64,000 nucleotides of DNA from Gonapodya prolifera JEL478 (taxonomy: Eukaryota > Monoblepharomycota > Monoblepharidomycetes > Monoblepharidales > Gonapodyaceae). Position numbers and translations under genes: made by a program. Shown piece after piece: positions 10,170 to 50,792 of this stretch. The notes under the pieces were generated by a model, which searched no databases, had not been told where the DNA came from, and saw nothing but the letters and a program-made list of their open reading frames with translations. Within the stretch, counting starts at the first letter, position 1; each line of letters opens with the position of its first letter. Where the stretch lies: the NCBI GenBank assembly GCA_001574975.1, contig KQ965747.1, forward strand, positions 161,267 through 225,266. The letters run 5' to 3'.

Positions 10170-10302
10170 TCAAACACGTGGATGTGGATATGCGAATAAA
10201 AGCACCAGCCATGAATGAAAATATTGGCAGTGAAATTATACACGAATATCTTCAAGAAATGCAGCCGTTAAAATTGCGTTCAACCCCGTGCACGGAATCC
10301 TT

Positions 10303-12496: not shown

Positions 12497-12775
12497 GGGA
12501 GTAGGCCAGTGAACGAAGAGAAACCGAGCGACTCAGCAACGGCGACGGATGTTGTGCTCGTGGGGTCATTGAGTTGCGGATGGCTGCGGCCCTTCCGCCT
12601 GATCACTTCGGCCGTTGCATGGAAACAAAGGAAAGAAGACTGCAAAGCGCCGAAAACAACTTGCATTTGGAAGCTTCTCGCGATCAAAGATCACCAATGA
12701 AAATGAACGCAGATAGCTATACATTTAGAAAATGTTTCTGCACCGTCTGCACCTCTCCAAAACTACAAAACTCTT

Positions 12776-15765: not shown

Positions 15766-17259
15766 GGTGCGGTGGGGTGATGGCGTGGGGAAGAGGGGGG
15801 TGGTGACGAATTGAAGACGGGTTGAGAAACTCCGATCGGTGGGAGGAGGGAGCCCGGGATTTGCTGGACCGCGGCTGGGAAACTGTGATGTGATGGAGAG
15901 AGCGCTGGATTGGTTCAGAAGGGGGCGAAGATGTGGGTGGAGCTTGATCGATGATGGAGGTGACTTCTGCAGAGGCGAGGGTTGACAAAGAGACGTGAAG
16001 CCACTGCGTATCAAGAGCCATTCACCGGTGATTGAAATGTGATCCTTACTAGAAGAAGCGACCGTGTCGCGACAGTAATCATAAACCGGGCTCCAAAATT
16101 TGCGAAACGTCTCGTAATGGATTTACACACTGTCAGGGAGATACCGTTCGGCATTGTATGAACTACATGAAATCACTTCACATCCCCAATGCAACGTTTT
16201 CGGTACGGTCCATGGCGAGCACTAGCAGGCCGATATGAGTGAAGGCGGTGCCCGAGCGCAGCTTGCGCTGTTCGCCGTACATCCAAGCCCTCTAACCGCA
16301 CGCCAGGTAACAACAGCCATGCACCAAGTGCGTGTCGGGGCACTGGCTAGTGATATCTACAAGTTCCGAGTTCCGACGTTAGCTGCATTCTGCATTCTGC
16401 AGACCATCGATGGACGCCCAAGTCCAAGTGGCAAGTGGGTGGGACGTGCGGTTGGAAGACGTCCCCAGCGAGAGTAATCATTTATCTGGCTCTGTCAGCA
16501 CAGTGAATGCATACGTTTGGAGGAGGAGACGGCATTTTGCGTTCTGTGAAGGAAACGTGATCGACCTCTTGTGATGCTCTTCGAAAGAGATCATAGCTAC
16601 TTTCGTAAACGTAAACTATAAATTTTACAGAATTCTGACGTATTCTTTTCGACGCGGCCCACGACGGGCAGGTCGACAGTTCGAGTGGACGTTGTGACCG
16701 AGTGCACTTCGCATCGAGACAAAGGGGAGAAACCGTTTCACGTTTCTGCGAGGGAAGGTAGAGTTTCGCACAGGGGTAGGCTTCCCAGAACCTGCGACAT
16801 GACGCAAGAGACACCGGAGGCAGGTTACTCCGAGTACTCTTGATACAGATGAATCGGAGAGGGTCCGCGGGAACGATTTGACGAGTGTAATTATCTTTAT
16901 CGAGCGCCATTCTTGGGGCTGTGTCTTCCCCTTTTGCGTCTCAATTTGGGCTGATATTTTCCCTTTTGTGGACCGGTTTTTGCCCCGTTATGGAAGACGT
17001 GCGCCCACAAAGGGACAATCAACCTCGTTTTGGACTTCATTCCGCTGCTTTGAAAGAGCGCAACGAGACGACGCAAACAAATAGGACATGATGCATAAAG
17101 TTTAGTCACCCCCGGGGTTGAGCGTGACTTCACGCGCCAGGCCAAGGGGTCCGCTCCGCCACTGTGGCGCGGCCCAGGTCACGCTGTCCCCCAATTCAAA
17201 TAAAAGGCGAACGGTTTCTCAGCCTACCCCTGATTCACCCAGAGAAGGAAAACGCAGAC
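15766..17259. other. Intergenic between divergent genes
   Basis: About 1.5 kb holding the upstream regions of the SPATA20-like gene (minus) and the MFS gene (plus). An open minus frame at 16482-16910 has no recognisable similarity or splice partners. No RNA gene was seen. Confidence 0.55.
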
Positions 17260-25800: not shown

Positions 25801-27118
25801 CCTTGATACACATGGTCTTAGTCACTCCAACCACACAACGCCTCGCCTTCGCCCAGCACCATCCGACTACATCTCCAGCCTCCCGCCCTGCCTCAACCGC
25901 CCCATCCGCTCCCGGATCATCCACTTTAAAGCCAACGTGTGCCGCGACTCGAAGTCCCCTGTACGCTCGGGCGCACGTCGAGTCGAGCACGAGGGTGAGG
26001 TCGGGGTTGGCCACCGGAAGAACTCGGATGAGAGGGGGATGAGGCACTGAAAGGTTGCGAGACAGAAGAAACCCGTGTAGAAGTGATGGGGTGAGAGGGG
26101 GCGGTGGCGGTGGTTGGGGGGTGACTATGGTAGGGAGCCCTATAAGAGCTCGTGAGGACCGTCGCTGGAGGAGTGCAGCCGGAGGAGGTGGAGCGAGCAT
26201 GGCAGATTGAGGACGGGAGAATGTTCCCGAGGCGCTTGGCATGAAGAGGACGCTTTGACTGGGGATGCTTTCCAAAAGGTGGGTTGTCTTGTGTTCTCGT
26301 TTAATTGCCCGAGAAGCACTGGACGTGTTGCGAGCGGCCTTTGATTCTAGAACGGGTACGTCACGCTCAACTCCCAAAATTGCCTCCAGTTTCGTCTTAA
26401 GAATGGTCCAAGGCTCCACTGCGGCCCCCTTCTCCACCCTCTTCCCTCCAGCAACACGCCTGTTTTGCCCAATCTGCTCTTCTTCTTCAATGAGCTTCAT
26501 GACAGCATCTTTCACTCGTTCTGCAGATTTTTTTCGCTCTTCTTCCTCATTTTCGAAATGAAGGGATGACCTGCGTCGCCGCATTATTGAAAGGCGCCGT
26601 CCAGGGGTGTCGACGATTTTCTCTGCGACCTCTGCAGGAACAAAGGCTTCTGCCTGCGTACCAAGAAGTGGATTTCGTCGCAGCGCCGAGCGTGGTCCTG
26701 AGCTCGACGAAGCGGAAGAACTGGAGCCCGAGTCGTCATCCGAAGAACTAAAGCTGTCGCTGACGAACGAAGATGATCGAGAGCGGTCCCAAGGGTTGTC
26801 CCCCGAGTTATTTCCAAAGAGGCTGTCACTGGATTGCCCGCCCTCATCTTCATCGGATTCACTTTGTGAAGTTTCATCTTCTTCACTGCCAGACTCCTCA
26901 CTGTCGTTTCCCTGTTCCGACTCCCCATCCTCGAAGTCCACTCCAGCGTCACCAGTAATCTCTCTGACATCGTCGGCATCGCTGAATTTAACTGTCCGCC
27001 CTCCAGCAGGGATCGGTTGTTCCAATGCTTCTTCACCACTGCTCTGAAACTCATTCCGGACCTCCGGAGGATCCTCTTGCCCCAGATCCACTCCGTCTGA
27101 ATTTGCTGACTGCAGCAT
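19872..27118 (-). CDS. Giant WD40 + HEAT protein, WDR87/WDR97-like
   Basis: A long multi-exon gene read from ATG 27118 to TAG 19872. Exon 1 (to about 25804) encodes an acidic, Ser-rich disordered N-terminus. The next exons, to about 23530, give WD40 repeats: HITAVEEASEFIVGG, YLCVGGTEGR, VSGGKDGVVRCWSLETG, CGTS|DGQLLLIDIS, MIFTCGRDSLLRCFKI and FATSSMDGTVKIW. A middle part of short exons is charged and helical (KRRIDLARKLRLRVESKF), with a Pro-rich stretch at 21180-21650. The C-terminal part (20700-20200) has HEAT-like helices (VLALIYRLADKEDDVRKAAL), then a basic tail. This order, and phrases such as LYNLLSGGDLAVYEA, recall WDR87/WDR97, which in animals are cilium or sperm-tail proteins. Some middle exons remain unresolved. 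Flagellar function is inference. Confidence 0.68.
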
Positions 27119-27525
27119 TCAAAGCTCCTTGCAGACTCGAAATGGCGATCGAATGAAGATTGTGTGGTGGCGCAGCGAACACAAGTGCGGTTGAAATTCT
27201 GCAGGACATCCCACCACACCATCAGAAGGACCAGTTTGATAAGTTAGTATTTTGTCCTCTCCCCATTCAATGAAAATTGAACAGACTTGCTTCGCACTAG
27301 TATTACTTCGTACGTATAAGTCAACAATATCAAACATAGATATGCTAGAGTACAGGTACAAAACAGAAACTCCATAATGCTAAGCGTTCACTCCCAGAAT
27401 GCCTCCCCATTCCGTGCACATCCGTATATACATCAATCACATCAAGTAAGACGTCAATGCAATTTCGTACCGCATAAAGTGTTCAGAAGCAAAATATCCG
27501 AACGTTACGTTGACCCCAACATCCT
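27119..27525. other. Intergenic, no gene seen
   Basis: About 0.4 kb between the start of the WD40 gene and the stop of the kinase gene. No coding or RNA signal was recognised. Confidence 0.6.
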
Positions 27526-30500
27526 TCAGTACGACCGGTAGTACCCCCGACTTTCATCCTCCCACGCAGTCCTGCGACGCTGTTCACGCGACACCAAGTC
27601 ATCATGATCCGGGTGAGCATTTGGAGATCGCCCCCCGTCCAGAGCATCATTGTAATCTTGCATCCTTTCTCCTGTCAGCTGTTGAAACACCTCTGCGGTC
27701 AACGAGGCGTGCCTTCGGAGATTGCTTACGTCGGGTACGTTCTCATCCAAAAGTTCTTCCTCGTTCCTGGTCATCCTCTCGGCCCACTCCTCGAAATTGT
27801 CATCGTCGTCAACAGAGGATGGTCGTCCATGTGTCCAGTGCCACGGCGTACTTTTGGGACGATCTCCAGATGTTTTAGAGTGGGAGCTTTGCCTCATCTG
27901 CCCTGAAAGCTCCGAGTATTGCGAAATAGGTGATTGCCCTCTAACATTCGGTCCTGCCGGAGCCTGTCTGCCGGACAAATCCGAATAGGTCATCCTCGAT
28001 TGCGCCTCTCCCAGTGACGCCACTGCCACTGCGCTGGGAGGCGGTAAACCAGCATCATTCGGTGCCGTGCTGGACCGAACAATCATCGTCTGCGAATTAC
28101 GCGGAGACACTTCCGATGGCGGGCCAGACACGTCGATCTCTGCGTGCCTCAAGTTCGCTAAGCTCTTTGGTCTCCACAGATACTTGCGGAATCCCTTAGG
28201 TGGAGCCGATATCGATGGAGGGACTATGGCTCGCATTGTCGATTGCGAACTCGAGACTGACGCATCCACCAGTGGTGTTCGAGAGTGATCACTCGGAATT
28301 GGAGTTCGCTGGTCGGCAACGATAGCGCCCAAAAATGAGTTGCGCCAAGAAGATTTCTGGCGATTAAACCGCGGAGGCGGCGTCGATGACGTGTTCGGCA
28401 AATCTGGTGGAACTCCAACATTCCTGTTGGAATCCACGACATCGCCTGATGTGGCGCTTCCCAGCTTTCTGCTTCGAGAAGGCGACTCTCCGAGTATTTT
28501 TGATCGGCTGGGGGATTCCTGAGCTGACTTGAGTTTCGTCGAAGACGGTGCCGCCCCATGGTTTCCACCTCCATTTATCTGTTCCATCACTGCAGCAGCA
28601 GCAGCGTCATCTATTTTCATGGATCTTCGGAAAAAGGCGGAAAGACTCTTTTGAGGGGGTCTCTCTTGCGGAGCTTGCGGGGGACCCGAGTCTGGAATCG
28701 AAATGTCCGTATCCGACTTCAACTTGGAACCCACTGCTGACAGGGCTTTGACCATGCCAGACCGTTCCCTGGGAGGACTGATGGGTGTGGGAGGTTTTGA
28801 AAGCTCTACGGCGGACATGGTGTGAGGTCCATCGGGAATAGCTGCACAACAACACCCTATTTGAGCTCGGAGGGCTATTGTGCCGGGGACAAAACAAACT
28901 CACTATCAGCTGGTCCAGCTTTCCCTTTCTTTGCACTCTTCGGCGTCAATCCGAAGAAATTCCGAAGCCGAGATCCAATCGACGTGGGCTATGATAAGAG
29001 ATCGAGAATCAGAGCCATGTTTGCAAGTTCAATCCCTGTCGACACGCACTTCGGGTTCCTTTTCCTCCCACTGTCGCATCCTAACACTTGGGTCGACAAA
29101 CCACCTGCCAATCCGCGCCTCCCATTCACGAACACCAATCTCGTCAAGGTCGGCAACCGTCCATTCGTGGAAAGCGGCTTCCTTAAGAGTCGCTCGTCGA
29201 CTTTGGTCCTTTTCCAGGAGGCGAGAAAGCAGGTGCACCAACTGCGGTGTTGGAGGAAGGACGTCGGGACCATGGTTGAAAGAAGGTCTAATTTGCAGTT
29301 TGTGTGTTGTAAGATGAGAACATTGAGCAAACATGGCAACGCTCACGCTTGGATCCCAACAGCCCTGTATGCATCCCAAATGTTCGCTCCAGCGAAGGGT
29401 AACTTTCCAAATGCGATGCAGTACAGTGTGACACCAGAGGCCCAAACATCCCCCGCTACCATTCCCGGTCTCGATCGTGTCAGGCTTGCGCTCGCACGCA
29501 CCGTCTCAATGCTGACACGACCGTCACTATCAAGCCCGTAACAAGCCTCCGGGGGAAGAAAGGCAGGAGTACCGGCGCCGTGGGCTAACTCATCATCGAG
29601 ATCGAGAGTTGCTGTAGTCGCAGAATCAATGTCGCTAGTCTGGGTGGTCTGATAGACAACGACAGTTGTTCGAGGACGCGTGGACGAAACAGCTGGGGCA
29701 TGCCTGAGGTAACAGGAACTTCCCAAATCCGAGAGAACGAGTCGGTTATCTTGGCCTATCAACAGATTAGCGGGCTTTATATCGCGATGGGCGATACCAA
29801 AGTAGTGCACTATGGTGTTGAATGGGTTTAACATTCGTCATGTCTTGGTCCGAACTGGAAGAGACATCGCGGAACTCACAAAATGCGACCCCTTCCAGCA
29901 AATCCCGCCAAAGTGGCCTCGCCGTTTTCTCAGACCAAAAAGGACGAGGAGGGTCCGCCAAGTCATCGCTCCATTTGAGCGCGCCTTGTGCGGCATAATC
30001 CAGAACTTGAGGCAAAGTTAAGTCGTGGTAAATACAGACTTCAGCGATTTTCGCTTTTGATTAGGACCCACCGATGTAAACCTTTGGGCTTGACGGGTCA
30101 TCCACCACTTCTCGCAATCCTATGATGCGGTCACCCCCAGCATCAGCAGCCATAGCAAGGACCTCGACTTCTCTCTTAATGCGCGCTTGGTGCAGAAGGT
30201 CCTCCAATCTAAATGTCCCGGTCTCTCGACTGTCCCCCATAAGATGTGCAAGCATACGCATTCGCGGATTAACTGACTTCTTTGCTGGTGAGCGAGGCAC
30301 AACTTTGATCGCCACTTGAGACCCTGTGCGCAAGTCGATTCCAACTTTGACCTTCCCGTTTACACCGCGTCCGACTTCCTGTACAATAGAGTATCCGTTG
30401 ATGCACTTTCGTCCAGAACTGGGATCTACATGCTTATCCAGTTGCCGACTAAAGATCACGGTACGGCGTTGTCGCAAGTGTTCATCTTCACCTAGCATTA

Positions 30501-33318
30501 CCGATGTGGCCGTGGCAACGGCAATACGTAAAGGAGTTGGTGGCAGAACGGGCAGAGCTGCTTGACTTGGCCGCCTTCCGAACACAATGGAGCTTGAGGT
30601 TGGCGATGGTGTCTCCGCCAAAACTGCACCGGGGACTCTCACAGGAGAGCCATAGGGACTTTCGCCATGACGCTCAGAAGGGGTTGTCCGTGTCATATGA
30701 ACGTCATTTTGAGGGAAAATCACTCTCGCAGAACTTGTCCCTGCGAGTGAAACTAAAGGTGCAACTTTAGATCTCGGCGGCGTGAGTTCGATATATGAAC
30801 GTCGCTGGGGGTAGTTCGGATCGTCCGGATCTCGGTCAAAATCCATGCTAGTTGCCTCACGATATCCGGGAATGGGGAGTCGAGGTTGCGTCGTTCTATC
30901 TCCGTTGGGTGATTGATACATGCTCCCGCCTGAATCGACCGACGGTCTGACATCAAATCCGAATTCTCCGTAGCCGTGGATGGGGGACGCCATGAGGCCC
31001 GCCCCAGCAGCCGTGCGATGGATCGGAGGAAAGGAGATCGGGTGTTGCGCGACAGCCGCACCGATGTGCCAAGTGGAAGCAACAGCTTTGTACGGCCGAT
31101 TCTGTTCTGCTGAGCCACTCGAACTATCAGAATTGACACGTCCCTGCGATGGACGTTGGACAGTGGCTTGCGACGTGTCTCGGCTTACCGCGAATCGAAA
31201 TGGTGGAGCGGAGCTCGAGCCTGGAGATATCCCCGAATAGTACGCAGACAAGTTGGGAGGAGTTGTCACTCGACGGGAAGCACTATTCGATGGTTGCAGA
31301 GGTAATGATATCATCGAGTCCATCGTACTAGAGTTGTTTCCTCCAGATGTTGACGAGTACAGTGATCCAATGGATCCAAGACTCCCCATTTCTCTGCGAT
31401 CATTTGAATATTGTGCAAGATATGTTTGATGAGGAATATGGGGTGCGATTTGGAGCAACCCAGTAAGTTCCATGTTCTCTCGTGACGCTCCGGCAACTAA
31501 TTCCGGAGCTTCCAGCGAGTAATTGGAACCCATGGATTCGCTCAGAGCTCGTGTATGGGAGGGAAGAGGGGAGGGTGCGAGATGGCTGGGTACCAGAGCA
31601 CTCAACGATGAGGTGCCCGAATCTGAAATCACGGAATGCCTCGCTGGGTACATGAGGGATTCGTCGGAGTCTGCACGGTGGTGAAATGCAGGCCTACTGC
31701 GGGATCGTGACCCATCAAGTGATGACTCGTCGGCAGAAGTATCGGAAAAACGATGATAATCGGCGAGATATTGAGTTGGGTGGCGAATAGAAGACCCTTC
31801 GGAGGTTGATGATAATGCAGACTCATCTGAGGGTCGATGGGATTGGTGTTTCAATCCGGTCGGTGTACTGAAGTTGCTCTGTGAGTGAATGAAAGGGGCA
31901 TCAGTAGGGTAGTCGGCGGCGAGAGAATCGAGGAATGAACGTGATGGGGGAAGTTGAGCCGCCAGGTTCAACATCGACAAAGCCGTCGTCCCGTTTGATG
32001 TCTGCCGTCCATATACTGGACCTTGACTTCCACTTAATGGTGAAGCTCGCCCATTGATGGTCCGCGACGCATCGTATCGGGCAGCTATTGTTGTTGCTGT
32101 TGAGAACGTCGTGATGGACTGCCCACTCGCTGATTTTGGCAGCTTAGTGGAGCCATTCTGTTGAGATGATAGGGCGGCTGTAACATACGGGGAAACGATC
32201 GGGCTTGTGGTCGGTGCCGATCGCTCCGAGGATGTGGATTCCGGAGAGGCCCCGCCATGGCTGACAACGCCGGTGGGTCTGCCCTGTGGGTTGGAACCCC
32301 CTGGTGATGATCGACCATTTTCTCTAACAGGAAATTCGCGTTCAGGGAGTGAAGGAGCACTACTTCCATGATTCGTGGATGCTGCTTTCAAATTTGGAGA
32401 GCGCGCGCTTTGGTGGTTTGGGTCGCGCCATGCTCCCAAACTCCCATTCGAGTCTGAATGAGGAGCCTTCAACGATTCCATTCTGATTTGCTCTCGCGGG
32501 GCACTAATTTTCGCAGCTGACGGTGAAGTTTCGGTTTCCCCATTCCGTGCATTTCTCCGTAGTGACTCTTGTTGGTCTTCCAGTGAAGGTTCAGATATTA
32601 GCTGGTTGATCCACCCCCTCTCATAAAACGGTGTTTCTTTGGAAAGTGCTTCCATGACAGAATCGGAGCTGTCCGAGTAAGGAGACTCTGGAGAGAGGGG
32701 CGTTGTAGGGGAAAATGGAGCTCCTGGCTCTGGAGGAAGGTACTGAGACTGATATGGCACAGCAGGACCCGTTTGTCGAGATGCCACAGGATTGTGATCG
32801 CGTTGATACCCCAAAGATACACTGGTATTTCGAGCTCCGGAAATGCGAAGGCGAGAGGGGGATGCAGACGATGCACGTGGACGCCCGTTGTGAGCTTGCT
32901 GATTCGACCTATTCGGAGATACTCCATTGCGAGGTCTTCCCGGGGAGACAGATTGGACCTCTCCGTCTCCGGTTTGGCCCAACTTTTCGGAAGTGTAGTA
33001 GCTATCCAGAAGATACGAGCTGTTGTCACCCTCAGCCCAACGTTCCGGACTCCCCCCTGCAGCAGGATCTTCTCCGGAAGCATAAAGGATCCGTTTACTG
33101 GGAGGTTGTCCTGGACTGGAATCATAAGTTCCCGGAGAGCCGTTTCCCATGATAACGGTGGTAACTGAACTTGCGGTGCTCGCCCGAGAGAAAACCGTAG
33201 CTGCACTCGCTGAGCCGGTGAGCCTTGGTTGAGTGATACTATCGCTTCTGCTTCGGCGTTTCATCGCTAAAGGGTTGAAAGACGGAGTTAGTTGGGAGAA
33301 TGTTGTCCAGCGCCTCAT
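27526..33318 (-). CDS. Large protein kinase, CaMKK/LKB1 (SNF1-activating) type
   Basis: Exon 1 (33318 to about 30074) encodes ~970 Ser/Pro-rich disordered residues, then the kinase N-lobe: gly loop EVGRGVNGKVKVG and VAIK lysine. Introns near 30020-30073 and 29820-29880 lead to YHDLTLPQVLDYA and to HRDIKPANLL with DLG (for DFG), GTPAFLPPEAC and MVAGDVWASGVTLYC. The frame continues through GLTPKSAKKGKAGPAD and an intron at 28835-28901 (phase 1) into a Ser-rich C-terminal tail of about 430 residues ending at 27526. The GTPAF activation segment and PPE are typical of the CaMKK/LKB1/Elm1-Sak1-Tos3-Ssp1 group, which phosphorylates the AMPK/SNF1 T-loop. DLG also occurs in LKB1. Total length is roughly 1750 residues, long for the group. 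The kinase call is firm; the subfamily is an inference. Confidence 0.8.
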
Positions 33319-34303
33319 CTGGCTCGCTGCTTTTCGTGCCCCGCCTCATGAAGAGAGGCACGCCCTCTTGCACTCTAAATCATTCTCCAAATATCACGCG
33401 AGGCGACACCGTTGGTTCCACGAGCGGAGCTTCTGTGATCAAATCTCAAAACAACTGATTGCAACATATCCACATCGAGCACCCATCATGTGGAAGGGCT
33501 ACAATTTTCATGATGCAATACCATAACTGTAGACTTCCATCGCCCGGAAGCTCTCACCTTGGGCGCCAACAACAGGACGCTAGCCAATCTGTTCCAATCG
33601 AAGCCCACTCGGGAAGACTTTCCACCCGGTAACGCCGTTAGAGCCCAGTATTTTTCACAGAGCGGTGCTTTCTTCGATTCGCAGGATACGAGGATTTGCG
33701 CGACTTTTCCCCGAGAGTGGATGTGTCAGAACGCAATCCCTCAACAAACATCGACCGGCAAGGGGTCAAGACAGGCTCACCAAAATCACAGCCAAGTCCG
33801 ATTGACTGTCTCACTTGGCATCTAATGCTCCGTGTTGAGTCCGGACAGGCGAGGTTTGGGGGAAAGTGGCGCTCGAGTCGAGTGGTGTTGATAGAACGGG
33901 AGGGGTGGTTGACAGAATGGTTCAAACAAGCAACCAAACCTTTACTTTGGAAGTAAGTAATTATGCCAACTTCAGCGTCTGTAGAGTTTTCGAAAAGCCA
34001 TTTGACTCCAGCACGTTATAGACCTCATGTATATCGGCTGGACAAGTATGAGGAATCAGGTCACTGTGACCCACCGACTTTTTCATAAGTTCTACCGCAT
34101 AGTGTTTGACGTGAAGTTTTCTAGTCGCATTGGCCTGTTTCGCCCATATGTATCTGTTCGATGTATCGTGCAGTACGCCGCCAGTAAAGAAAAATATATT
34201 AGTGTACTGCAGGTGATTTGCATTTGTCTGGCTCCTGTTCCCACCGAGATACTTCGAAGTGCAACTTCAAACCAAAGCCCTTGACTTCCACCAACACTTC
34301 GTG
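33319..34303. other. Intergenic between divergent genes
   Basis: About 1 kb between the kinase start and ARL2. Only short unconserved frames were seen; it should contain both promoters. Confidence 0.55.
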
Positions 34304-35280
34304 ATGGGTCTACTCACGATTCTCCGGAAGAATCGGCAGCGAGAGCGGGAAATTCGCATTCTAATTCTGTGGGTCTCATGGGGCATTAAAGGAGTGAATG
34401 CGTGTCCACGAAGTACGGTGGTTTGACGTTGATCATAATCGTTGATTGCTTCTTCCCTGGCCTGTCCAATCCTTCTACGCACCGTGTGCAATACATTTCG
34501 CTGGACTCCCTCCGAACTGATACCTGGCTGTGGTTCTGCAGAGGATTGGACAACGCAGGAAAAACCACCATCGTTCACCGCCTTCTCGGTCGCGACTTGT
34601 CCTCCATATCCCCGACATTGGGCTTTGCAATATCAACAATTGCCTACGGCGGATTTAAGCTGAACGTATGGGACGTTGGGGGACAAAAGTCCATTAGATC
34701 GTTCTGGAGGAACTACTTTGAGAAGACGGACGCCGTGGTCTGGGTCGTTGACGCAGCTGATGGAGAGGAAAGGTTGAAAGAGTGTCGAAAGGAAATGGAG
34801 AGGGTTGTGACAGAAGAGGTAGGTTTCGCAAACATGTGGACCTTGAGCGCACATGTGATAGCCGCTTTCCAAAGAACACTGAGAGGATCAGGGAGAGAGT
34901 TCGAGAGCGCGAGAATGTCACTTCATGCTAGGGGCATGGACTGGGTGTGAAAAAGTGGTGGTTTTATATCTTGAGCGCCAGTTTTTCACCCGCTTACCCG
35001 GATTTGGGCGAGGTCTGTTCGATGATCAAACTGACCTGTCTCCCCTCCCTCTCAGCGCTTATCTGGCGCCACACTTCTTGTTCTCGCAAATAAACAAGAC
35101 CTACCATCCGCACTCCCAGCTTCTACAATTTCCTCACTCCTTGGCCTCGACTCCCCAAATGCGCTTCCCGGTCACCATTGGGCCGTGTGGGGTTGCTCGG
35201 CATACGACGGGCGAGGATTGCGGGAAGCTATCGGGTGGTGCGTTTCAGACGTGGGTGGGAGGCTGTTCCTGGTGGATTGA
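34304..35280 (+). CDS. ARL2: ADP-ribosylation-factor-like GTPase ARL2
   Basis: Three exons, 34304-34368, 34542-34818 and 35056-35280, give 188 residues (human ARL2 has 184). The start is the family-typical MGLLTIL. All GTPase motifs are present: P-loop GLDNAGKTT, switch I with SPTLGF, switch II WDVGGQ, NKQD guanine specificity (ANKQDL) and CSA near the C-terminus. The [19 protein letters not shown] stretch and [15 protein letters not shown] are ARL2-like rather than ARF1-like. ARL2 works with tubulin cofactors in tubulin folding and microtubule maintenance, and with BART-type effectors. Intron 1 uses GTGGGT...TGCAG (phase 2); intron 2 GTAGGT...CTCAG (phase 0). Confidence 0.93.
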
Positions 35281-36295
35281 AGGTGGTGGTGCGAAGATTA
35301 GAATCCGGCGACCCACCTTGGATGCGCTCCCCGTTATGCGACAAGCGCTCTTTATCATACCTATCTGTTCCTGTAAATAATCTATGCTGCACTGTGAAAC
35401 TCACTCGAAATTGGGGAAATGAATCAATCAATTCTGAAAGTGCGTGTTCTCTTGTAATCCAAGCTCCGTTACGTTGCTTAGCAGTATGTGCATCATCTAC
35501 AATTGAAGCGTCGAAGCGGTCGGTGCAACCAAGGGTTGCGACGGTACCGCATTAGTTCTGGTATCTCGTTTTCTTGAAAACGAACGGAGATCTAGCAAGC
35601 AGGAGAGTTTTCATGAATATCACACTTTCAACGAGAAGAATTTTCACGCATCCGATCAACCATTGTTCAAATTTCAAACAGCACAGAGAAGTGATTGTCT
35701 GCACATTCTATCAAATGTATCACCGCGGTTACGACTTCTATAGATTGCTCTACCTCCAACCCGCCATTCATTAGGCCGCCCCGCGCCCAAGTATCATACA
35801 CGAAATGCCTCCTGTGTACATGTAACGGGTGCAGAGCAAAACTGTGGGTAACCGCGAAGATTAAGACAATAACCTCTGACAATGACGTCCGAAGAAAAAG
35901 GTACCAAGGGGGAAAAGAAAAGAAAGTGAAAGTGAAAAGTTCGTGCTGATAGCCCAGAAGAAGACGTGAAGTACGGAAAAAAGGGTGTATGGAGACGAAT
36001 GTTCAGCGTGCAGAATGCCAGTTAGCGCAAGATGACGGACGCCCAGTCCGAGAAAGCGCGCGCACGCCGAGGTATCAAAATTGTGTCCCTTCGATGTCTC
36101 CAATAAGCCCAAGGCCGTCTAAATCCGCATTCCACGCCGTCATTGTACGAATCCAGGCATCAGCGCCTGTGTAGTACTCTACTCCAAACGATGAAAAAAG
36201 AAACCGATGTGAAAAGAAGCCAATCCAACATGCGCCGATGCAGTTCCAACAACAAAACCACCGCATCCACATCGACGCTTTTCCATGTGGTGAGA
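35281..36295. other. Intergenic, no gene seen
   Basis: About 1 kb between the convergent ends of ARL2 and the helicase gene. Short open frames only. Confidence 0.6.
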
Positions 36296-38692
<2,397 letters not shown>

Positions 38693-39039
38693 TCTAGGAA
38701 GGTGGGTTGGATGGGCGAATGACACGGCGTCAAGGGATAGTACCGAAACCGCATACGGGAGGAACAAGTGCCAAAGGAAGAACGTTTGTGTTAGCTCCGT
38801 TCTATTTCGCAGCGTCCGTCCCGGCCGCGACACTCACATTGGTGAAGTGTGATAAAAGGAAAAAATTCGCTCCTGTGGACACTCAACCAACCCAGCCTTG
38901 TCAACGAAACAGCTGGAAAACTGGGACAAAAACACTTTCTCTGAAATTCTTCTATTCGTTGCATCGAACATTTCTCACAACTTCTTCAAGCCTATCTGCA
39001 CACAACTATTTACCAAAGAACGCAGTGAACGAAAACGGG

Positions 39040-42000
39040 TCAGTCGCGGTAGCGCCCCTTGTACTTCTCGGTCCACTCCATTATCATGGACCTGATAGAA
39101 TGATTCGGCGTCTATTGGCCAAGGTCGTTAATGAGAGATACGGGGTTCGATGATAAGACATACCAATCGCACTGTCCCCTTGAACTTCAAACCTGTGATC
39201 GGTGACGTGTGCTTCATCTGTATCCACAAACGTATCTGTTCTTCTTCATAAGTGTGACCGTCCGGGGCTGGAGAATCAAATATATCCATTAGTACCAAGT
39301 ACCAGAAACAAAATTGAGGGTTCACTCGACATCAACTCACCAACAACTGGAAACTTCATAATCTCGTGAGAAATCGGACATAGGAAGGTTTCGGGAACCT
39401 TCACCCATTCAGGCTCGACGACCTGAGGAGGGGTCGGCACCGACGTCGACGGCAATGTGAACTGGGCTTCGTCCATCGCGTTCAATACCCGTACGGCCTC
39501 ACGAAGTTTCACACGTGCTCCCATAACCCATAACGAGCCCCATGTCTTGGAAGTCTTGATCTTCGAGCAGTTTGAGCGTTGGCAGGTCAATCTGCTGTTC
39601 AACAAACTGGGGGATGTACTGAGATAGACCCAATGAGATGAAAAGCTCCTCAAGAGAGGCAGGTGGCTTTGACTGGGGTGCTTGGAGCCGAGGAATGGGT
39701 GAGGAGGAAGAAGATGGTGGTGGAGTGGGGGTGTTCGGGGAAGCAAATGAACCGGGCACCCCAAACGAAAAGGAAAAGCACGTTGGCTGAGTGGTTGGCG
39801 ATCCCCCAGACGGTAGAAGCACCACACGTCCAGCGCCAAAAGGAAACGAGTTGGGGGAAACAAAAGGGGCGTAGCTTGAGTGCGCAGAGACCTCAGGCTC
39901 CGGTGTGGTTACATCAGAGTAACCACTCCCGCAAGACGATGACGCGGCAGAAAGGGGTCGTGCAGACAAAGAAGCTGCTGCTGAGATTTTCGTCTACGCC
40001 GTCGCGGGAGACGAAACAGGTTGCGATCGAGGAGAAGGCGGGGGCAGGGGTACAGCCACAGGAGTTCTTCCAGGCTCCAGTTTCTTCTGCTGTTGCTGCT
40101 GTGACTTCTTCGACGCTGGGGGGTCCTTTTTGACCCACACATGGCCATCCGAATGCAGACACTCGGACCCCACGCTGCAGCTCCCATCTTCGCTCTTACG
40201 GCATTTCTTAGTGCCCTGCCAGACACCAATTTCAATACCAGGGTCGATCGTGTCAGTGAGATGGCCAAAAGTGCACTTGTTTCCTTTCCAGCACTTCCCC
40301 TAGACGGAGACGTGAAATTAAAAGGACGTTGGGGCGTGTATCAAAGCTCCTCACCTGCTGGTAGTATTTACACAAAATCACCCTCCTCACATCCTTTGGT
40401 TCAATAACCCGGTTCAAAGATGAGCTGGAACTTGCAAGAGCAATTGTCGGGGCAGATGCGATGGGTTTCGACATCATTGGTGCAGTGCTGGGTCGGGCAG
40501 ATGCCACAGTAGCACGAGAGCCAGCTGGAGACGATGAGGCCGGTACAGCAGGCGCTTGTCCAGGAACATGCATTGCGGCAACAGCAGGGGAGAAACGGAG
40601 GCCAGGAGGAGCGGCAGTTGACGCTGGCTGCTGGGTTGGAAGAGTCCTGTCGGAGTTTGCCAAAGCCGTGATGCTGGCTCTGGTCGACCCTGCAGCAGCC
40701 CCGTGTACCTGGGCGAACAACTCTTTCTCCTTCCCAAAGTCGAAATCGCCGTCCATGTTCTGAATCACGCTGTATTCCCTCATCTTCGCATCTTTAGCCG
40801 CAGCGAGATGTGCATCCATTTCCGCCTGCTGTTTGGCCTGAGCTGCTTTTCGCTTCGAAGTAATCGTCCTCCACTCTTGCTCCAGTCTCGCTCGGTCTGT
40901 GTCCATTTTCGCGCAAGTTTTGAGCAGTTTGTCTCGCTCTTTGGCAAACAAATCCTGGCGGTTCAGCGAAGCTGCAACCACACATCGAACTCGGTCATGC
41001 GGGTGGATTATACGCCATCGGGGTAGAAGTTCCGCAAATGGGTGGTCCTTGATGAGGGCGAGGATTTCAACAGGAATGAGTGCGCCCGAATTGAGATCAG
41101 CGTCGGTCTGAGTGAGGTGTTGTTGACCGCTTTTGCGCTGACCAGGCGTGAGGCCAAGAGACGCGACCTCCTCGGCGGTGAGCTTGCTTTCTCCGGGTAC
41201 CATGATGATGAGCTGGTTTTGCGTTGAGGGGGTGATTGGCTTCGCGTCGTCTCGAAGCGATTTTAGGCGACTTACCCTTGGGCACCCCTCAATGATCCTT
41301 ACCACGTGCTGCACAAGCATGTTCTTCACTGTCGCGTGTATTTCTTGCGCTTTTGGAAGCCCCACAATACCCTCAGCAAAGTCGAGTGCGAGTTGTCCGT
41401 TGGAAACGACCGTAATTTCGAGCAAAGTGATGCGATACCACGCGGTGAGTCTTTGTTTATGCGACGAGATTTGGTCAAAGGAGACATCACTCAACCAAAA
41501 ATCTTTTACTCAACTCACTTATCTTTCCAGAAGTTCATCTGCGTCTTCTCCGTTCTGTGATCCCCCAACATATCCAACCATTGCAATCCTCTGGCCACCA
41601 GCTCCTTGTCAACCCCTACTGATTTGGCCTTGTCCACGCTTTCACGAATCTCCTGAATTCTCTCATCGATTCTCCCAGGTCGGCCTCGTATACCTTCATC
41701 CGCCGCCACCCTCAAGATAATCTCAAGGACATCTGTCGCCTTCCGTCGTTTCACGTACCGTTCCATTTCTGCAGCACGCTTCGCTGCATCCCGAGCGGCG
41801 GTTGGGTCTTCGATGAAAAGGTGCAGGGGCATCGACCAAGGTCCCAATCCGATGTGGTTGCAACCGCGGGTGCGGAGTGCCCACTCGCCCGCAGACAGGT
41901 GTTCCACCGTGTGGTAAGTTAATGTTGTAGTACTAACGTGCTTCACAGACGTTCCATCACCCTTCAGGGGACTGGAGAAGTCGCATAAAACCGATTAGCC

Positions 42001-43613
42001 TCGTAACAGGGACAAACAATTGCAATATACCCACGTTCCAGTCAGTTCGATCTCGTATTTCGTGACTCCCAAGAATTCTGCTTCTGAACATGTCCACAAC
42101 ACTGCGATGCGAGTCGTCGCATCCTTCTTATTCACCACAGTTTGCATGGTAATACGGGGAATCGAGCACTGATGCGGAATACCACCTGGCGGATCACAAA
42201 CAAATTAGTACGAGACCAATCCAGAGCCTTCAATCTTTCGCCCACCTTGCAGTCTGAGCGCTCCACCCTGCTGCGCTGCCTGCTTCGCGGATGCTTTGCT
42301 CCCAGCTTTCCCCTTCCCTGCGGCTTTGCCAGTTTCAGGGGCGAGCTCGTCAGCAGTTTTTGGGCGTCGCAAGCGTAAGTACTCCGCATGGTCATAAATA
42401 CGAATGTATTCTTTGCGACGTTCCTGTTCACCAAGTTTAGAATTAGATGCAGTGGAGTCCGTACGAGGAATGATATCGACGAAAACACTCACCATCTCGG
42501 ATAAGACGGTGTGCGCTTCTCGGAGCTCTTGGAATTTGACTTTGTCGGCTTCCGTGGAATGCGGCATCCGGTCCGGGTGAAGCTTCAATGATAGTTGTTT
42601 GTAAGACTTTTTTACGGCATCTGCGAATTAATGAGTACGTTCAGACGATGAAGAGCCACGACCATCTCTGAGCTCCCCTCACCTGCGATGATATTGTCGC
42701 AGTTCTCTTCCTTATCACGCAAATCGGTCCTCTTTTTCTCGACCACACGCATCTTCTTGCGAGCTTCATCGAGATTCGCGGCAGCAAGGGTCACGAGTAT
42801 GTCGGTAGAAACATCTTTGAACGCGGGCACAGTGAGAAGTCTTTCTATCTCGGTTTTTACTTTTTCGAGTTGAGGATTGATCTTCTCTGTTGCAGGGAAG
42901 GACTTTTTATGTCACTGAATAAACTCTCCATAATCGCTTGTTCTCACCTATCTTGGAAGCTCGGTCCTTCTCCTTGCCTTTTCCCGCCGTTATCTTATCT
43001 ATTTCGTCTTCGAGCTGCTTTCTCTTCGCGACTTTGGCAGCGAGGTTCTCGGCGAGCGAGAGCATGTGCTTTGCCGGGACATATTCGTGTGATATTTCAA
43101 CCTGGTCACCGAGAGTTTTCCGGAGAATGCGGACTTGGGCAACCACAAGCGGGTTGAGGTGAAGGTTGAGCACCTATGCGTCGCGGATGGCGATGAGAAT
43201 AAGAAAGGCGTTAGAACAAAGGAAATGTAAGAGGAACTGAGTTCAAGCAACTTGTTTTGGGCTCAAATCTGTTGTGTCCGGAAATATTCATGCCCATTCA
43301 TAACACCAGCGTCACGGTCATCGGAAAAGTCGTGATTCACAGAGGACTTTATTGAATGAAGAATAGAGAGCAAAAACTTCGCTTTACCCTCCGGACGTCC
43401 GTAACCAGCGTGTTTCCTTTCATTTGAGGTTCAAAACCTTTCCGTCTGATTCGATTCCAGCTCCACCAATCCGCTCAAAGCGAGTTGAGATGGCAACCCA
43501 TCATGATTGTATAGACGCACCTGAAAGTATTGGGGCAGAGGTCTCTGGTCCGGGTCTGCGTCCTTTGACTTCGCCTTTCCCTTGTCGACGGTGGGTTTGT
43601 CGAGGTCACTCAT
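39040..43613 (-). CDS. J-domain / FN3 / CCCH / SAM / U-box multidomain protein (frame broken in SAM)
   Basis: Twelve exons: 43613-43521, 43173-42948, 42886-42683, 42620-42493, 42423-42246, 42185-42035, 41971-41519, 41450-40355, 40299-40054, 39993-39341, 39267-39164 and 39111-39040, about 1200 residues. All phases match except one break. Order: coiled coil (about 35-170); J-domain with HPD at 189-191; FN3-like domain (about 282-380, GEWALRTRGCNHIGLGPWS); long helical and Ala/Pro-rich middle; CCCH finger at 838-856 plus a second Cys-rich motif; SAM domain (about 1036-1098); C-terminal U-box (FLCPISHEIM...VVAPDGHTYE...TSPITG...TPNHSIRSMIMEW). J-domains stimulate Hsp70 ATPase and U-boxes recruit ubiquitin E2s, so the chain could ubiquitinate chaperone clients. 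Caveats: a 7-bp tandem duplication at 39520-39533 shifts frame inside SAM; intron 1 is long (347 nt); the 60-nt intron at 39994-40053 has a GTACCC donor. Confidence 0.78.
39520..39533 (-). repeat. 7-bp tandem duplication disrupting the SAM-domain frame
   Basis: The plus strand reads CCCATAA twice in a row. On the coding strand the frame up to DMGLVMG is SAM-like and then hits a stop, while the frame giving ARVKLREAVRVLNA (the expected last SAM helix, leading into the U-box) is one base off. Dropping one 7-mer copy restores a continuous frame. No splice pair could remove it. Confidence 0.8.
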
Positions 43614-44028
43614 TCATGTGGGCGGAGGAGGATGGGTAGAAGAGTTACGAGACCGTGGATGTTTGTCTCGAGCAGGTCCGATCGTAGCACGGCGATGCGA
43701 AAAGAGGTTGATTGCAAAAAGCCATTGAAGATGAAACTTTAGGATTAGTTCAACAGTTTTTGTAAGGCCACGATGCCGAGAACATTTGAAAATAACGCTG
43801 CAAATGAATTGAGTTACTGAATCCTTTCGTAGGGCGCTGCATATCAACGAAATTTGCAATTGTCAATAACCTTCTTCGTGAGCTGGTTTAGGCATTCTTC
43901 AAGTAATCCGCTTTCCTAGACATTGCCAAAAGCAGTTACTGTAAAAGACGGTCAGCATATACGTTAGAAATCTGGTGAAGAAGTTGTTGCCTTTGCGCGA
44001 AGTGTCCAGATGTGTGCTCCTCTGCCTG

Positions 44029-44510
44029 ATTCCTTGTCCCCCTGAGAAGCTGCGTTCGGCCCTTCGAGGCTGGAGGAGTTGCCCACTTTATGCGCTCCCT
44101 GGTGAGTTCCCCAGAAATGGGTTGAGCTCTAGTTGGGTGAACAGCTTCCGGGATGGGGGTGTTGTTAGCGTCAGGTCAGTTCGTTCATCTTCCCGCCCGT
44201 TTCGAGCCGTGCCAGTCTCTGACCACCTTTCCCCTACCTTTTTTATGGTTGATGGGCGGGTATGACACCACCCAACGTCGTTCCGCTCTTGCGACAAGTG
44301 TCCCTTACCAAACTTTGACCTCGTTCGCGAGGACGGTCCGACGGTATTGGAACGCGAGTCCACCGTATATGGCTTTGGCCTTCGACGCTCTTCGGAGTGT
44401 CATGGTGTTGTGTCTGAAAAGGCGCGAAACCAACAAATTTGTGGAACGGGAAGGTACCATCATTCCTTTTATGAATCACTTAAGCCAATGAAACCGTCGC
44501 CACGTTTTGG
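44029..44510 (+). repeat. Inverted repeat copy A (~480 bp)
   Basis: Starts ATTCCTTGTCCCCCTGAGAA and runs to about GCCAATGAAACCGTCGCC. It matches the reverse complement of 47650-48146 over its whole length with substitutions and small indels. Shared blocks include GAAATGGGTTGAGCTCTAG, GTCCCTTACCAAACTTTGAC and GGTCCGACGGTATTGGAACG. No transposase was recognised in it. Confidence 0.9.
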
Positions 44511-45866
44511 AGAACTGTTGCTGCGGGACTGGGCTGGCTTGTGCAGTTGCATTTCATGGAACGAAGATGAAGAAAATCGCCCTGATCGCAAAGGTTGGCT
44601 GTTCGCTTGTTCTCGTTCATATGCAGCAGTTGGACAAATCGCTGCATCATCGTCGACCTTTCTCCTTGCGTTTTTTATTACATATGGATTTTCTTTTTCA
44701 CGGTAGAGCCCAACTCCACTCCGGTCTCCCATTTCTTTACCTTCGTTGTAAGCCACCTCTTTGCTCCGACCGCTCACCTCAGCCGCCTGTTCTACGTCAC
44801 CGTGTCGTTCTTCGGTGGAAATCAGTGGAATTCTCAATGGATTTTCAACTAACTCAATCTCATCCGACTCCCCACTCTCACTTCATACTCGATGCTTTCG
44901 TGTTCTCTTCCTCCGACTTTTCGATTTCCCATTCTGGCCCACGCTTCCTTCCGCCGCGTTCGCTGAATCTCAACTCTCGGCGCAGGAAAGTAACATCGTC
45001 ACATTCAAGAAGGGAACCTCAAGGAGGAATTCGACAAGGTCAACGACAATGCCAAGAAGCAAAGTGATCCTCAAAATGGCACCACTTCTAACTCACTAGT
45101 GCATGACCAAATTCCAAGGTTTCGCTGTGTCCCTTACTTTTACTGTCGCTTCTAAGTTTCTACGATCGTGTTCATCGCGTTTACCACTCTTTCCCCCATG
45201 CGTTGCTCGCTGTGTGTCTAACCAAATCCAAAAACTCATCTCGCACAGTGGCAGACGCAGTCTATGTCAATCGTTCAGTGGCCCTCAAGCCCCAAACTCA
45301 CATGACCACGTCGAAGCTGATCAATTATCCGTTAGTATCGCCAAGTTGGACTTACCGCCTTCGAGGGTAGCGACGGTAAGGTTCGGCCGCGCGCATTTAT
45401 AAGATATAGGAATCCGAGAAGGGCATTGACATGGAGCGGAACAAGCTAGTAGAAAGTTTGCAAGAGCATTGGGTGCACGTGTAAAGTGTAAGAAAAATAT
45501 GAACATTGGGGTAAACGACAGCCTTGACAAGGATCCGCTTAATCGGTGGTATGTTTTGAAGAGTAAAAATACGAGATAGAGGCGGCTGGCTTGATGAGCC
45601 AGTAACGAACTGGTCAATTGCCGAACCCGTCCTGAGCACACCCCGCGATTGCTGAGGACATTCTTCCACCTGTTGCCCCAATCCTTCCAGGACACCGCAA
45701 CAGCGAGCGCTGCTGTATCCCGCTCTGCAACATCAATGGCTTCGTCTGCTGTTAAGCCCGCCCAAACGGTTACCACTGAAACTGGTACCAACCAAGTCGA
45801 CCATCGCGAGCAAGAACCCCTCATAGCCTCCTCACAGTCAACTCTCTAACCATTTCGCAACCACAT
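44511..45866. other. Accessory segment between repeat A and the DUF4419 relic
   Basis: No convincing gene. A plus-strand stretch near 45005-45065 reads EGNLKEEFDKVNDNAKKQSD and could be an exon remnant, but a stop lies just upstream and no partners were found. Pieces near 45730-45845 (MASSAVKPAQTVTTETG) may be the 5' part of the DUF4419 gene. Confidence 0.4.
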
Positions 45867-46925
45867 TTGTCTCTGTTGTCACTCCATCATTCAGCATCTG
45901 TGACCTTTCTCGTCACAAGGGGCCTCAAACCTGAGCGCGCAAAAGCCTTTTACGGGCAAGGCCCCCCATTTGGCAGCTTCGTCAACGTCTTCCGCGAGCT
46001 CGAGACCAACGGTGGCGTCCTCGCGTCTTCCTCCTACGATTCGGCGACGTTCCTCCCCAAGGCCGGCGGGCTCGTCGAGGTCATTCTCGGGGCGTACCGC
46101 GGGCACCCCAACCTCGTTCTCCGACCTGACGACGTGTGGCTTGCTATAACCAGTTAGTGTGCCCGCTACGTCGAGGCAAATGCCGAGCACCTTCGAGGCA
46201 TGTTTGGCAACTTTGAGGGCAAAAGGGAGCTTGCCGTCAATGTTTCGGGACCGCTCACGCACCCTGCCACGGTCGAGCAGCGCGCCCAGGGATTCGAGCA
46301 GCTTATTGACAAGAACGTTGTCGACCCGGACTTGCGGGCCTTGATCGTACCCGATTTCTCCACCACAACCCACACGGACCGTGTCGTCGGGAGCATGATG
46401 CTCATGACGACATGCAAGTCCTACTTCAAGTACACGGCGTGCATCTGCGGCATTCCCAACATGACACTTGAGGGGACCGTAGCAGATTGGGAGGAGGTTG
46501 AGCGACGTGCAGCTCTCTTGGCCCGGTATGGCAAACACTGCGCAGAGTGGGCAGCTATGCTTGGTCCCGTGCTGGCGCAGTTCACGGCGGCCGTGTGGGG
46601 TGACGTGGATGCTGATTTCTGGGAGCAGATATGCCACACGAATAAGCCCCAGAATCGATGGGTGACTGTTTTCGGCGTCTTCAGCGACAAAGGACAGTGG
46701 CAGGCTAATACCAAGATCAACCCCGAGCATAATAAAACATGGACAACTCAATGGTGCTTCTTCCCGATCCATCAGATCAGCAAAGGGTACACTGAGTGAC
46801 CAGTGACAATTGTTGGAGACGACCGGGAGGGACCTTACCAGACCACGCTGTATGTCGGGGTGGTAGGAAGCAACGTCTTGAGCGATGGTGTCACCATAAA
46901 GCCAACGGTGGCGTGGCCGCTCTGA
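45867..46925 (+). pseudogene. DUF4419-family gene with two in-frame stops
   Basis: A continuous plus frame carries DUF4419 landmarks: PNLVLRPDDVWLAI, CARYVEANAEHLRGMF, GKRELAV, IDKNVVDPDLRALIVPDFSTTT, CICGIPNMTLEG, DWEEVERRAALL and the QISKGYTE...PVTIV region. It is interrupted by TAG at 46155-46157, where the family usually has a residue following LAI-S (often Gln), and TGA at 46797-46799 between GYTE and PVTIV. The frame resumes correctly after both and ends at 46925. No splice sites remove the stops. Function of DUF4419 is unknown; such genes are often multicopy in fungi. The gene sits between two large inverted repeats. The true 5' end is unclear. Confidence 0.8.
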
Positions 46926-47649
46926 AAAGACGACCCTGATGCACAAGCGAAACTCATAGCGACAAAACATCGTGGCAGATATTACTAGAGGCAATAACAC
47001 CGTTGACCGTAGCTTATTGCTGTATTTGAAATTTTGTTTATGCGATCCCGAGTTTGTGCAAAATATGGTGAAGAAAAGTCGCCAGTCAGGTCGCCAAGCC
47101 AAGCAGACCGATCAGAGAGCTCTGACTATATGTGTGTATTCTGACTCGATAAGTACCGCGAAAACAGAACACAGGAATTACCCATGAAGGTGATCGACCT
47201 CCCGAGCTTGCACCCATTGAGGCGGTGGCGAAAGTGATAATCGGCCAATGCGTGATTCGCCTTGATTACCGACTCGTGTCGAGACTTCTGTAGAGAAGTC
47301 CGCGTGCCACGTATTCGTGCTGAGGGTTGTCCAAAACGTGGTCGATGCTCTCTCAAGGAAGCGTTTGGAAGTTGGCGGATGTGCAATATTGGCTTCATTG
47401 TGACGTGTTGTGGAATATTTGTATTTCCACACAGAAATCGAAGTCACTGCTCACAGGCTGAAGTAAATACTCCACATATGGGACGTAAATTCAACGAAGC
47501 AGTTACCAATAGCATCCATATCAAGTCCCAAAAGTTGTACAACGAGGGGAAGCCATCGATAACAAAGGAAGCTAGGATATGGTCCTTTTCATTTTAGCGG
47601 GCATTCACTTTGACGAAGCGAGTCCAGTCCCACGGAACAAGTACTCCAA
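46926..47649. other. Accessory segment between the DUF4419 relic and repeat B
   Basis: About 0.7 kb without a recognisable gene; short unconserved frames on both strands. Confidence 0.5.
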
Positions 47650-48146
47650 AAAGCAGCGACGTTTTCATTGGCTTAAGTGATTCTTATAAAGAATGATGGG
47701 AAGAACGTTTTACGCCCTTCCCATTCCAAAAATTTGTTGGTTTCTCGCCCTTTCAGACACAACACCATGACACTCCGAAGAGCGTCGTAGGCCGAAGCGA
47801 AAGAAGACGGACTCGCGTTCCAATACCGTCGGACCGTCCTTGCGGACAAGGTCAAAGTTTGGTAAGGGACACTTGTCGCGAGAGCGGAACGACGATGGGC
47901 GGTGTCAAACCCGCCCATCAACCACGAGAAAGGTAAAAGAAAGGTGGTGAGACTGTCACGACTCGAATGCGGTGGGGAGATGAAGGAACTGACCTGACGC
48001 CGGACGACGCTAGCGACACCCCCATCCCGGAAGCCGTCCACCCAACTAGAGCTCAACCCATTTCTGAGGAACTCACCCGAGGAGCACGGTATGTGGCACC
48101 CTCCGAGCCTGGAAGGGCTGAATCAGATTCTCAGGGGGACAAGGAA
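47650..48146 (-). repeat. Inverted repeat copy B (~490 bp)
   Basis: Reverse-complement counterpart of 44029-44510. In this orientation it has a 127-codon open frame (SSWVDGFRDGGVASV...RRYWNASPS) that resembles broken frames of copy A, so the repeat may derive from a once-coding sequence. Copy B carries an additional block near 48000 relative to A. Confidence 0.9.
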
Positions 48147-48462
48147 TGTGGCACAATGTGAAACGTTTTTGGACCCGCGTGCACGCACACCCACAGATTT
48201 CATATATCTGAAGGAGACGTTAGTATTAGCGGTTCTTTCTTATTGCTTCATATGACCTAAAGTTTATGTTTGAAAAAAAGTACTTCCCGCATTCATTTTA
48301 TGTAACGACTATTTATTCCCACCTAATCAAGCTGAGCTGTAAACCAAGTAATCTCGCGTGCGCTTTTGCAACTTTGAACGTTTACATATTTGGGCCCACT
48401 CAGGCATCTCGTTTGGTGGTGCTTGGTGGAACCGTACAAATACAAAGCAATCACCGCGAGAT

Positions 48463-50360
48463 ATGGTGTCGCTCGCAAGCATCACATCGCTTCCCCATGA
48501 CAGTTTGGACCGTGTGCTGGACAACTTGCCGCCCGAAGACTTGGTGAGTGCCGAGTGGCCATGATTGATGCCTGCATCTCGACGCAGTCACCAATCATCC
48601 AAACTCCCAAACCCAGGCCAGTCTCACATTTGTCAATCGTCACATACACGACCGCGCGAAGGTCCTGAGAGCTCGAAAGAACGAGCACCTGGCTCAGTTC
48701 CCGTGCTCTGTGTTGTCGGCCCTAATCAAAACAGGATACACATGGTCTGAGCTGCTGACAAACGCTCAAGACCTCGATAGGTGTGCTGTTCGTGGGAAAG
48801 GGTATTCTCAGAAGAAGGAAGATGGTGAGTTTCCAGACTCCAGTTCCGTGGTAATTACTGACCCGGTCTTTGCTTTCAGGAGCCACACCCACGGAAAGCG
48901 AAAGACACGAGACTCCGCTGTGGAATAAGATGGTGACGCGGATCTTCCATCGCTGCTTGGGACGAGAACTTGTCGATGTCAGCGTGTCCAAATGAAACTA
49001 GCAAGATCCCCCTCGCAGTCAACTCGGCACAGCATAGGAACTTCAGAGACATTGTCCCGACGCACAACAACGCTGACCTCATCCGCCTCGACGTAACTCA
49101 TCTTCCTTGCCACTTCAAAGAGGCCTTCACTTTGAGGACTTGGCACAAGGTACTCTATTGGTGGACTCCCGAAATTATTCATACTGCAAAGACGCGGCTG
49201 GACTTGCCACCCCCTCAACGAATGCAAGCCTCCGTGGGAGGGCGCCGTATCATCTTTACGAAACGGGCCGTGAGGTAGAGCTGTCATTACGGCCGGAGGA
49301 GTTCGCAATGAAATTCTTGACGAGACATAGCCAAATGTCGAAATTCCCAGGGATCGATCGTGACGGGATCGGCTATGAAGTCGATAGAGTTGGAGCGAGG
49401 ATCGCGATTGATAGAGCTACTGCACAGGGATTAAGCCGTCTCGATGTTTGGTGCAAACGCTTCGGAATAAGCGTATCGGTATCTTGTCTTCAGTGGAAGA
49501 ATTTTGTGACTTCGCTACCAGCAGGATTACCACGACTGAGTGCCTGGACCGGTATGTGGAGATGCGCGACGCAAGAGATCATGCTCAGCGCATGATGGAG
49601 GATCTCACATCAGCAACAACATCCGACCTTGCGCGCGTATCTCGGCTTCGGTGCGGAAGAGTACCTCGACCACCACAGAGAGTTGTGCCTGGTGCTTTTT
49701 GACGCCCAGTTTTTCCTGAGCCACTTCGAGTTGTTTCAAGATATGGGAGCTGAACGGATCCTGGAGAATTTGTTTGGTCTTTCCTGTGGAGTGGACCATT
49801 GTATTTTCAGCCAGACTGCTGACCAGGCACTTTGCATATGAGAAAGGTACCACATTTATCGAGGCATTAATTCGATCCCGCTGCAGCATTTCAAGGATCA
49901 GTGGGACCCCACGAGGTTCTTGACGAATGTGACACACATCGTGACTCCTGAAAATACTCCGATGGAACCCATCCGACCCAGAATTGTCTCCTATTATGAT
50001 TCAGCGCTGAAACTTTCACGCGGGTACAGAGCGACAGGGCTTCTTTTCGCTGGTTTTGAAAAGGGAACTGCGTGGCGTGACTGCGTGAAACAGGGACTGC
50101 GAACTCGACGGTGGGAAGACTTGGCTCCACATGAAGAGAACTCATTCTACAAGAGGATGAAAATGAGAAGGCAGGCATCGAATAAAGCGCCTTCAGATCA
50201 AGAAGATGTACCAGGTGCTCCCGAAGAAGTTTCTGAGGACTCGCAAATCCCAGTGGAAGACTCAGAGCGGCCAACCCAGAACGAGGGAAGTTCAATTGGT
50301 GCAACAGCGCCCGGTGACGGGGGAAGGGCGAAACGTAAGACGACAAGAAAGAGGAAGTAA
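48463..50360 (+). CDS. F-box-type gene, possibly degenerate
   Basis: The start at 48463 gives MVSLASITSLPHDSLDRVLDN, an F-box-like N-terminus. It continues across an intron (GTGAGT at 48544 to CCCAG near 48617) into SLTFVNRHIHDRAKVLRAR, and across a second (near 48826-48880) into ESERHETPLWNKM. Beyond this the frame changes often: IPLAVNSAQHRNFRDIV, then YHLYETGREVELSLRPEEF, then CLDRYVEMRDARDHAQRMM, then RAYLGFGAEEYLDHHREL, then PRIVSYYDSALKLSRGYRA and a basic tail to 50360. Some changes may be introns (a 76-nt one from 48932 to about 49007 fits), but that near 49630 has no room for one. F-box proteins act as SCF substrate adaptors. It is either many-exon or decaying. Confidence 0.48.
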
Positions 50361-50792
50361 ATGAATTTACCACCTATGAATGAATGAAGTGGGCAAGGTC
50401 AGGAGGGCGAGATATTCTTGCATTGTGATGGGACGACTTTGGAACCGCGATTAATTGAGTATTTCGTGTGTATTTGTACAAAAGGCTGATGATATGAACG
50501 AATCTTCCTTCGTTGTTCGGTTCATTGTGATATGGTCTGCTATGTAACTTCTGTAGTTCGACGGACGTGCAGAGAGGTAAGTGGTGAACACTCAAGAGCC
50601 CCAGTACTAGTGTATTTCGAAGGTGGGAGACGAGATCCAACATAATGCAATCAAAGATACGATGTAATGCAGTCCAATAATACAACATTGTAACACCAGA
50701 TTGAAGCCCACCCCACACCCCGTACCCCTCCGACATCCTCGGTCAGCACCTAGCGATAATTTACCCTCGGGCTCGCTACGCTCGTCCCCCCC
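50361..50792. other. Intergenic, no gene seen
   Basis: About 0.43 kb between convergent gene ends; no coding or RNA signal recognised. Confidence 0.6.

Follow-up and report, generated by a model that had tools for sequence, protein, structure and literature searches.

Two differently damaged copies of a gene that probably once joined a J-like domain to a U-box in Gonapodya prolifera

On the minus strand of a 64,000-nucleotide stretch of the Gonapodya prolifera JEL478 genome (the window), we find the modules of a gene that, judging from its reading frames, probably joined in an ancestor a J-like domain, an FN3-like domain, a CCCH finger, a SAM domain and a C-terminal U-box. Neither of the two copies in the assembly encodes this five-module gene. 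In the window copy, a stop codon beyond the CCCH region and a duplicated 7-bp unit within SAM would cut the U-box off from everything upstream; the sister copy on contig C98 appears to have been broken otherwise, by frameshifts, by loss of the J/FN3 part and by an inversion, one breakpoint of which lies in the exon 8/9 region. We hold with moderate confidence that an ancestral gene of this kind was damaged in one way in the window and in another on C98, and the gene is probably in decay, not a new ligase that works. An earlier note on this DNA had read the region as one gene encoding a self-contained Hsp70-recruiting ubiquitin ligase; the modules are indeed present, yet they do not form a single open gene, and the ligase reading finds no support in the window copy because the stop and the frameshift cut the ligase off.

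Results

Gene model and domains of the window copy

Joining exons 1-10 (43613-40054; Table 1) gives 2712 nt, or 904 codons, free of stops; the shifted frames contain 28 and 31. Introns 1-9 begin with GT and end with AG, carry G at +5 of the donor and are 55-69 nt long, the exception being intron 1 (347 nt), whose length makes exon 1 the least certain exon; a branch-like motif (e.g. CTAAT, TTAAT) is recognisable in most of them. Together with introns 11 and 12 they are plausible and match in phase, including the junctions 42246/42185 (J/FN3) and 40355/40299 (within the CCCH finger), and intron 8 can also be read through, in an open reading frame of 418 aa (40253-41509). The construction of the CCCH finger across 40355/40299 with matched phases, and the frame open through intron 8, indicate that the J, FN3-like and CCCH modules belong to one gene, as had been proposed. 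The third junction of the note, 40054/39993, is not confirmed: the segment that it spans ends in an in-frame TAG and does not resemble an intron.

Table 1. Features of the gene region in the window copy
Feature	Position in window	Strand	Observation
Exon 1	43521-43613	minus	Start ATG at 43613; open frame; donor GTGCGT
Exon 2	42948-43173	minus	N-terminal region, charged, probably helical
Exon 3	42683-42886	minus	Charged, probably helical; expected site of J-domain helix I
Exon 4	42493-42620	minus	J-domain core with HPD; Pfam DnaJ 7.2e-12
Exon 5	42246-42423	minus	J-domain end and linker
Exon 6	42035-42185	minus	FN3-like domain, first half; phase-1 junction with exon 5; weak PDB match (PTPRF)
Exon 7	41519-41971	minus	FN3-like domain, second half, and region after it; weak PDB match (PTPRF)
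Exon 8	41276-41450	minus	Phase-matched; remnant on C98
Exon 9	40355-41212	minus	Last part carries first Cys of CCCH finger
Exon 10	40054-40299	minus	Remainder of CCCH finger and second Cys/His cluster
60-nt segment	39994-40053	minus	Putative intron of the earlier note; more probably a coding linker closing with in-frame TAG
Ser/Pro linker and first part of SAM	39535-39993	minus	Frame of exon 10; Pfam SAM_1 1.3e-5
7-bp tandem duplication	39520-39534	minus	Frameshift within SAM; TRF; single unit in C98
SAM end and U-box start	39341-39519	minus	Other frame; reading frames, Pfam
U-box middle exon	39164-39267	minus	Joined U-box exons, Pfam 5.9e-18
U-box last exon	39040-39111	minus	Open frame with stop; Pfam

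A domain search of the joined model matched DnaJ, SAM_1 and U-box, placed a CCCH finger slightly below the cut-offs and returned no fn3. The DnaJ match covers residues 175-223 and profile positions 15-62 of 63, and the HPD motif between helices II and III, noticed earlier, is present as KLHPDRMP; the best PDB match is DNAJC5, and a whole-genome search recovers the core at G000:C17:203762-203887. The PDB alignments also begin after helix I, so that this helix is either absent or unrecognisable: neither Pfam nor the PDB alignments reveal a YxxLG-type helix I in exon 3, and by sequence the J-domain is not a complete four-helix domain. For exon 2, the Pfam search gave no significant match. The FN3-like assignment is suggested by just three PDB matches, all to the receptor phosphatase PTPRF and weak (best E 0.07); PTPRF carries FN3 domains. 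Of the CCCH fingers previously described in the plural, one alone scores (Pfam 2.4e-4 to 6.4e-4; 20.0-21.2 bits, with a cut-off of 24.6 for the 21.2-bit match), its spacing C-x7/8-C-x5-C-x3-H being found in CKYYQQ/GKCWKGNKCTFGH across the splice junction, while the second Cys/His cluster (CRKSEDGSCSVGSECLHSDGH) does not follow the canonical finger pattern. SAM_1 scores 8.8e-5 in the joined model, where the frameshift shortens the match, and the U-box, lying in a different frame, reaches 65.2 bits against a cut-off of 21.4. Pfam matched neither a TPR before the U-box nor a WD40 before SAM/U-box in the joined model.

Two lesions between the CCCH finger and the U-box

The CCCH frame runs on for 19 codons past exon 10 and stops at a TAG (39996-39994), and the SAM frame is the continuation of the CCCH frame. 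A true 60-nt intron would remove this stop, and the segment does have GT...AG ends, a length like that of the neighbouring introns and a preserved phase; however, its donor is GTACCC, it has no recognisable branch motif and its G+C content is 67%, whereas each of the other 11 introns carries G at +5, with a G+C content of 38-54%. On C98 the donor is deleted and TCG stands at the TAG/acceptor site, and splicing, even if it took place, would leave the SAM frameshift where it is. Removal of the TAG as an intron is thus very unlikely, and a nonsense codon appears the better reading of the segment.

The second lesion, absent from the earlier note, is the tandem duplication of a 7-bp unit (CCCATAA on the plus strand), which shifts the frame by one within SAM, so that SAM and U-box, both confirmed as domains, are not in one frame. 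The sole local GT...AG pair encloses 17 nt, which rules out splicing across the duplication. Owing to the TAG and the duplication, the U-box does not share one open frame with the substrate-binding part of the protein.

The position of the TAG, between the two parts, might suggest two neighbouring genes, one encoding J-FN3-CCCH and the other SAM/U-box. This is scarcely credible: after the TAG, the first in-frame ATG comes at residue 151, inside SAM, and a separate SAM/U-box gene is rejected because no start codon precedes the SAM core. The CCCH frame reaching SAM with one TAG in between, the missing ATG and the C98 copy, in which an open frame leads from the second Cys/His cluster to the U-box, make it likely that SAM/U-box once belonged to the same gene, from which it is separated today.

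The sister copy on contig C98

The genome searched comprises 207 contigs (47.6 Mb), with the window on contig C17. The gene region has a copy of about 90% identity (88-90%) on C98, in which TCG replaces the TAG and a single 7-bp unit is present; a single frame runs through ...DMGLVMGARVKLREAV...ETFLCPISHEIMK, SAM_1 being matched up to profile position 63, so that SAM and the start of the U-box share a frame in C98 but not in the window copy. This copy carries damage of its own: loss of 1 nt downstream of the CCCH finger, replacement of the first CCCH cysteine by Phe, a -1/+19 pair in SAM whose members compensate each other and leave a 289-aa frame open, a changed U-box splice donor and an altered last exon. 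On C98, the counterpart of window 34634-41257 lies in reverse orientation with respect to its flanks, and a 66-bp remnant of exon 8 sits beyond the breakpoint. J/FN3 was not found in the 17 kb of C98 examined, a protein search of the genome outside the window found no second copy of it, and window 41375-50518, which holds J/FN3 and an inverted-repeat unit, has no C98 counterpart between the matches to 52384-50519 and 41374-41309.

More widely, compared over window 27000-41257 and 8000-16000, C98 carries a second copy, 80-90% identical, of much of the window, and several J-domain and U-box genes elsewhere in the genome are paired at 80-90% identity over 1.7-3.2 kb. The C98 copy and these other gene pairs could reflect two diverged haplotypes, hybrid subgenomes or an old duplication within the assembly.

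Comparison of the window copy with C98 gives a dN/dS of 0.38 for exon 9 (p = 6e-4) and 0.15 for the CCCH-containing exon 10 (p = 7e-5), where constraint is strongest; these values cover the entire history of the copies since their split and give no date for the lesions. The ratios for exon 11 before the duplication (0.57) and for the SAM end plus U-box (0.66) are not significant, and the neighbouring helicase segments show 0.09-0.38 at similar dS, with no frameshifting indel. The gene thus seems to have been coding during much of the time since the split, its ligase end being less constrained.

Were the TAG and the duplication assembly or sequencing errors, the window would encode an intact five-module Hsp70-recruiting ubiquitin ligase. 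The module frames are open apart from the lesions, C98 has neither of them and the U-box match is strong. Nevertheless, two independent errors would have to fall within one 480-nt stretch, read errors do not typically take the form of a 7-bp tandem duplication, the adjoining helicase segments are free of frameshifts and the C98 copy is broken too, all of which makes such errors an improbable source of the lesions.

Discussion

If the window copy is expressed, the decaying gene that we favour would yield a 923-aa J-FN3-CCCH protein devoid of the ligase, possibly an Hsp70 co-chaperone with an RNA-binding finger, or its transcript would be lost by nonsense-mediated decay. The lesions, both copies and their frames are seen in the assembly; that the lesions are real and derived and that the ancestor was functional we infer, and the direction of change rests on the reading frames, as there are just two copies and no outgroup. 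Decay, if any, would be recent, because the U-box still matches profile positions 1-70 of 73. As a sub-case of the same explanation, a functional J-FN3-CCCH protein ending at the TAG might have been kept by selection and the SAM/U-box part discarded as a 3' end; the degrees of confidence attached to the alternatives are hence not exclusive. Exons 1-10 are free of lesions and constraint is highest in exon 10 and not significant beyond the TAG, but the ratios cover the entire period since the split and the J/FN3 half, lost from C98, has no partner there for comparison, so that we regard selection for the shortened protein as a tentative proposal.

The ancestor would have worked as an Hsp70-directed ubiquitin ligase, with the J-domain passing clients to Hsp70 and the U-box recruiting an E2. 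In this regard it recalls CHIP/STUB1 (TPR plus U-box), with which the window gene shares a C-terminal U-box and, attached to it, a module that would contact Hsp70, although that module is a J-like domain instead of a TPR and the U-box is out of frame. A separate TPR plus U-box gene of the CHIP type is found in the same genome (L013, G000:C10:614313), and its other U-box genes include a UFD2-like pair, named from sequence only. At another locus (L012, G000:C34:48323), a U-box exon is followed by frames that by look resemble a VWA-type domain.

In WDSUB1 and its relatives, SAM directly precedes a C-terminal U-box, and forms without WD40 have been described, bona fide WDSUB1 being restricted to animals (PMC3087547). 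The window gene has this order of modules in common with them, with SAM and U-box in different frames, but lacks WD40 and bears J, FN3-like and CCCH modules upstream. With the class C J-domain proteins (DNAJC) it shares a non-N-terminal J-domain that keeps HPD and is joined to unrelated modules; unlike theirs, its helix I is not recognisable.

Text searches of the literature, a weak test, returned no description of a protein that combines a J-domain with a U-box. Such a protein would give the cell a second direct link, beside CHIP, from Hsp70 to ubiquitination. The combination is likely a past architecture in this genome, and since it is broken in both copies, its value depends on finding intact relatives. 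Speculatively, relatives in the lineage may have stayed intact, with a helix-I-less J-domain bringing Hsp70 clients to the U-box ligase, SAM serving self-assembly and the CCCH finger RNA, and the window would then represent a broken strain or assembly; we put this forward as a possibility, and a rather doubtful one.

Beside the gene region, window 44101-48077 contains inverted repeats of several hundred bases (82-93%) that flank about 3.1 kb, within which lies a DUF4419 gene (46158-46796; 5.2e-53). A mobile element and a duplicated gene with arms are candidates for this unit, and pieces related to it occur on contig C73.
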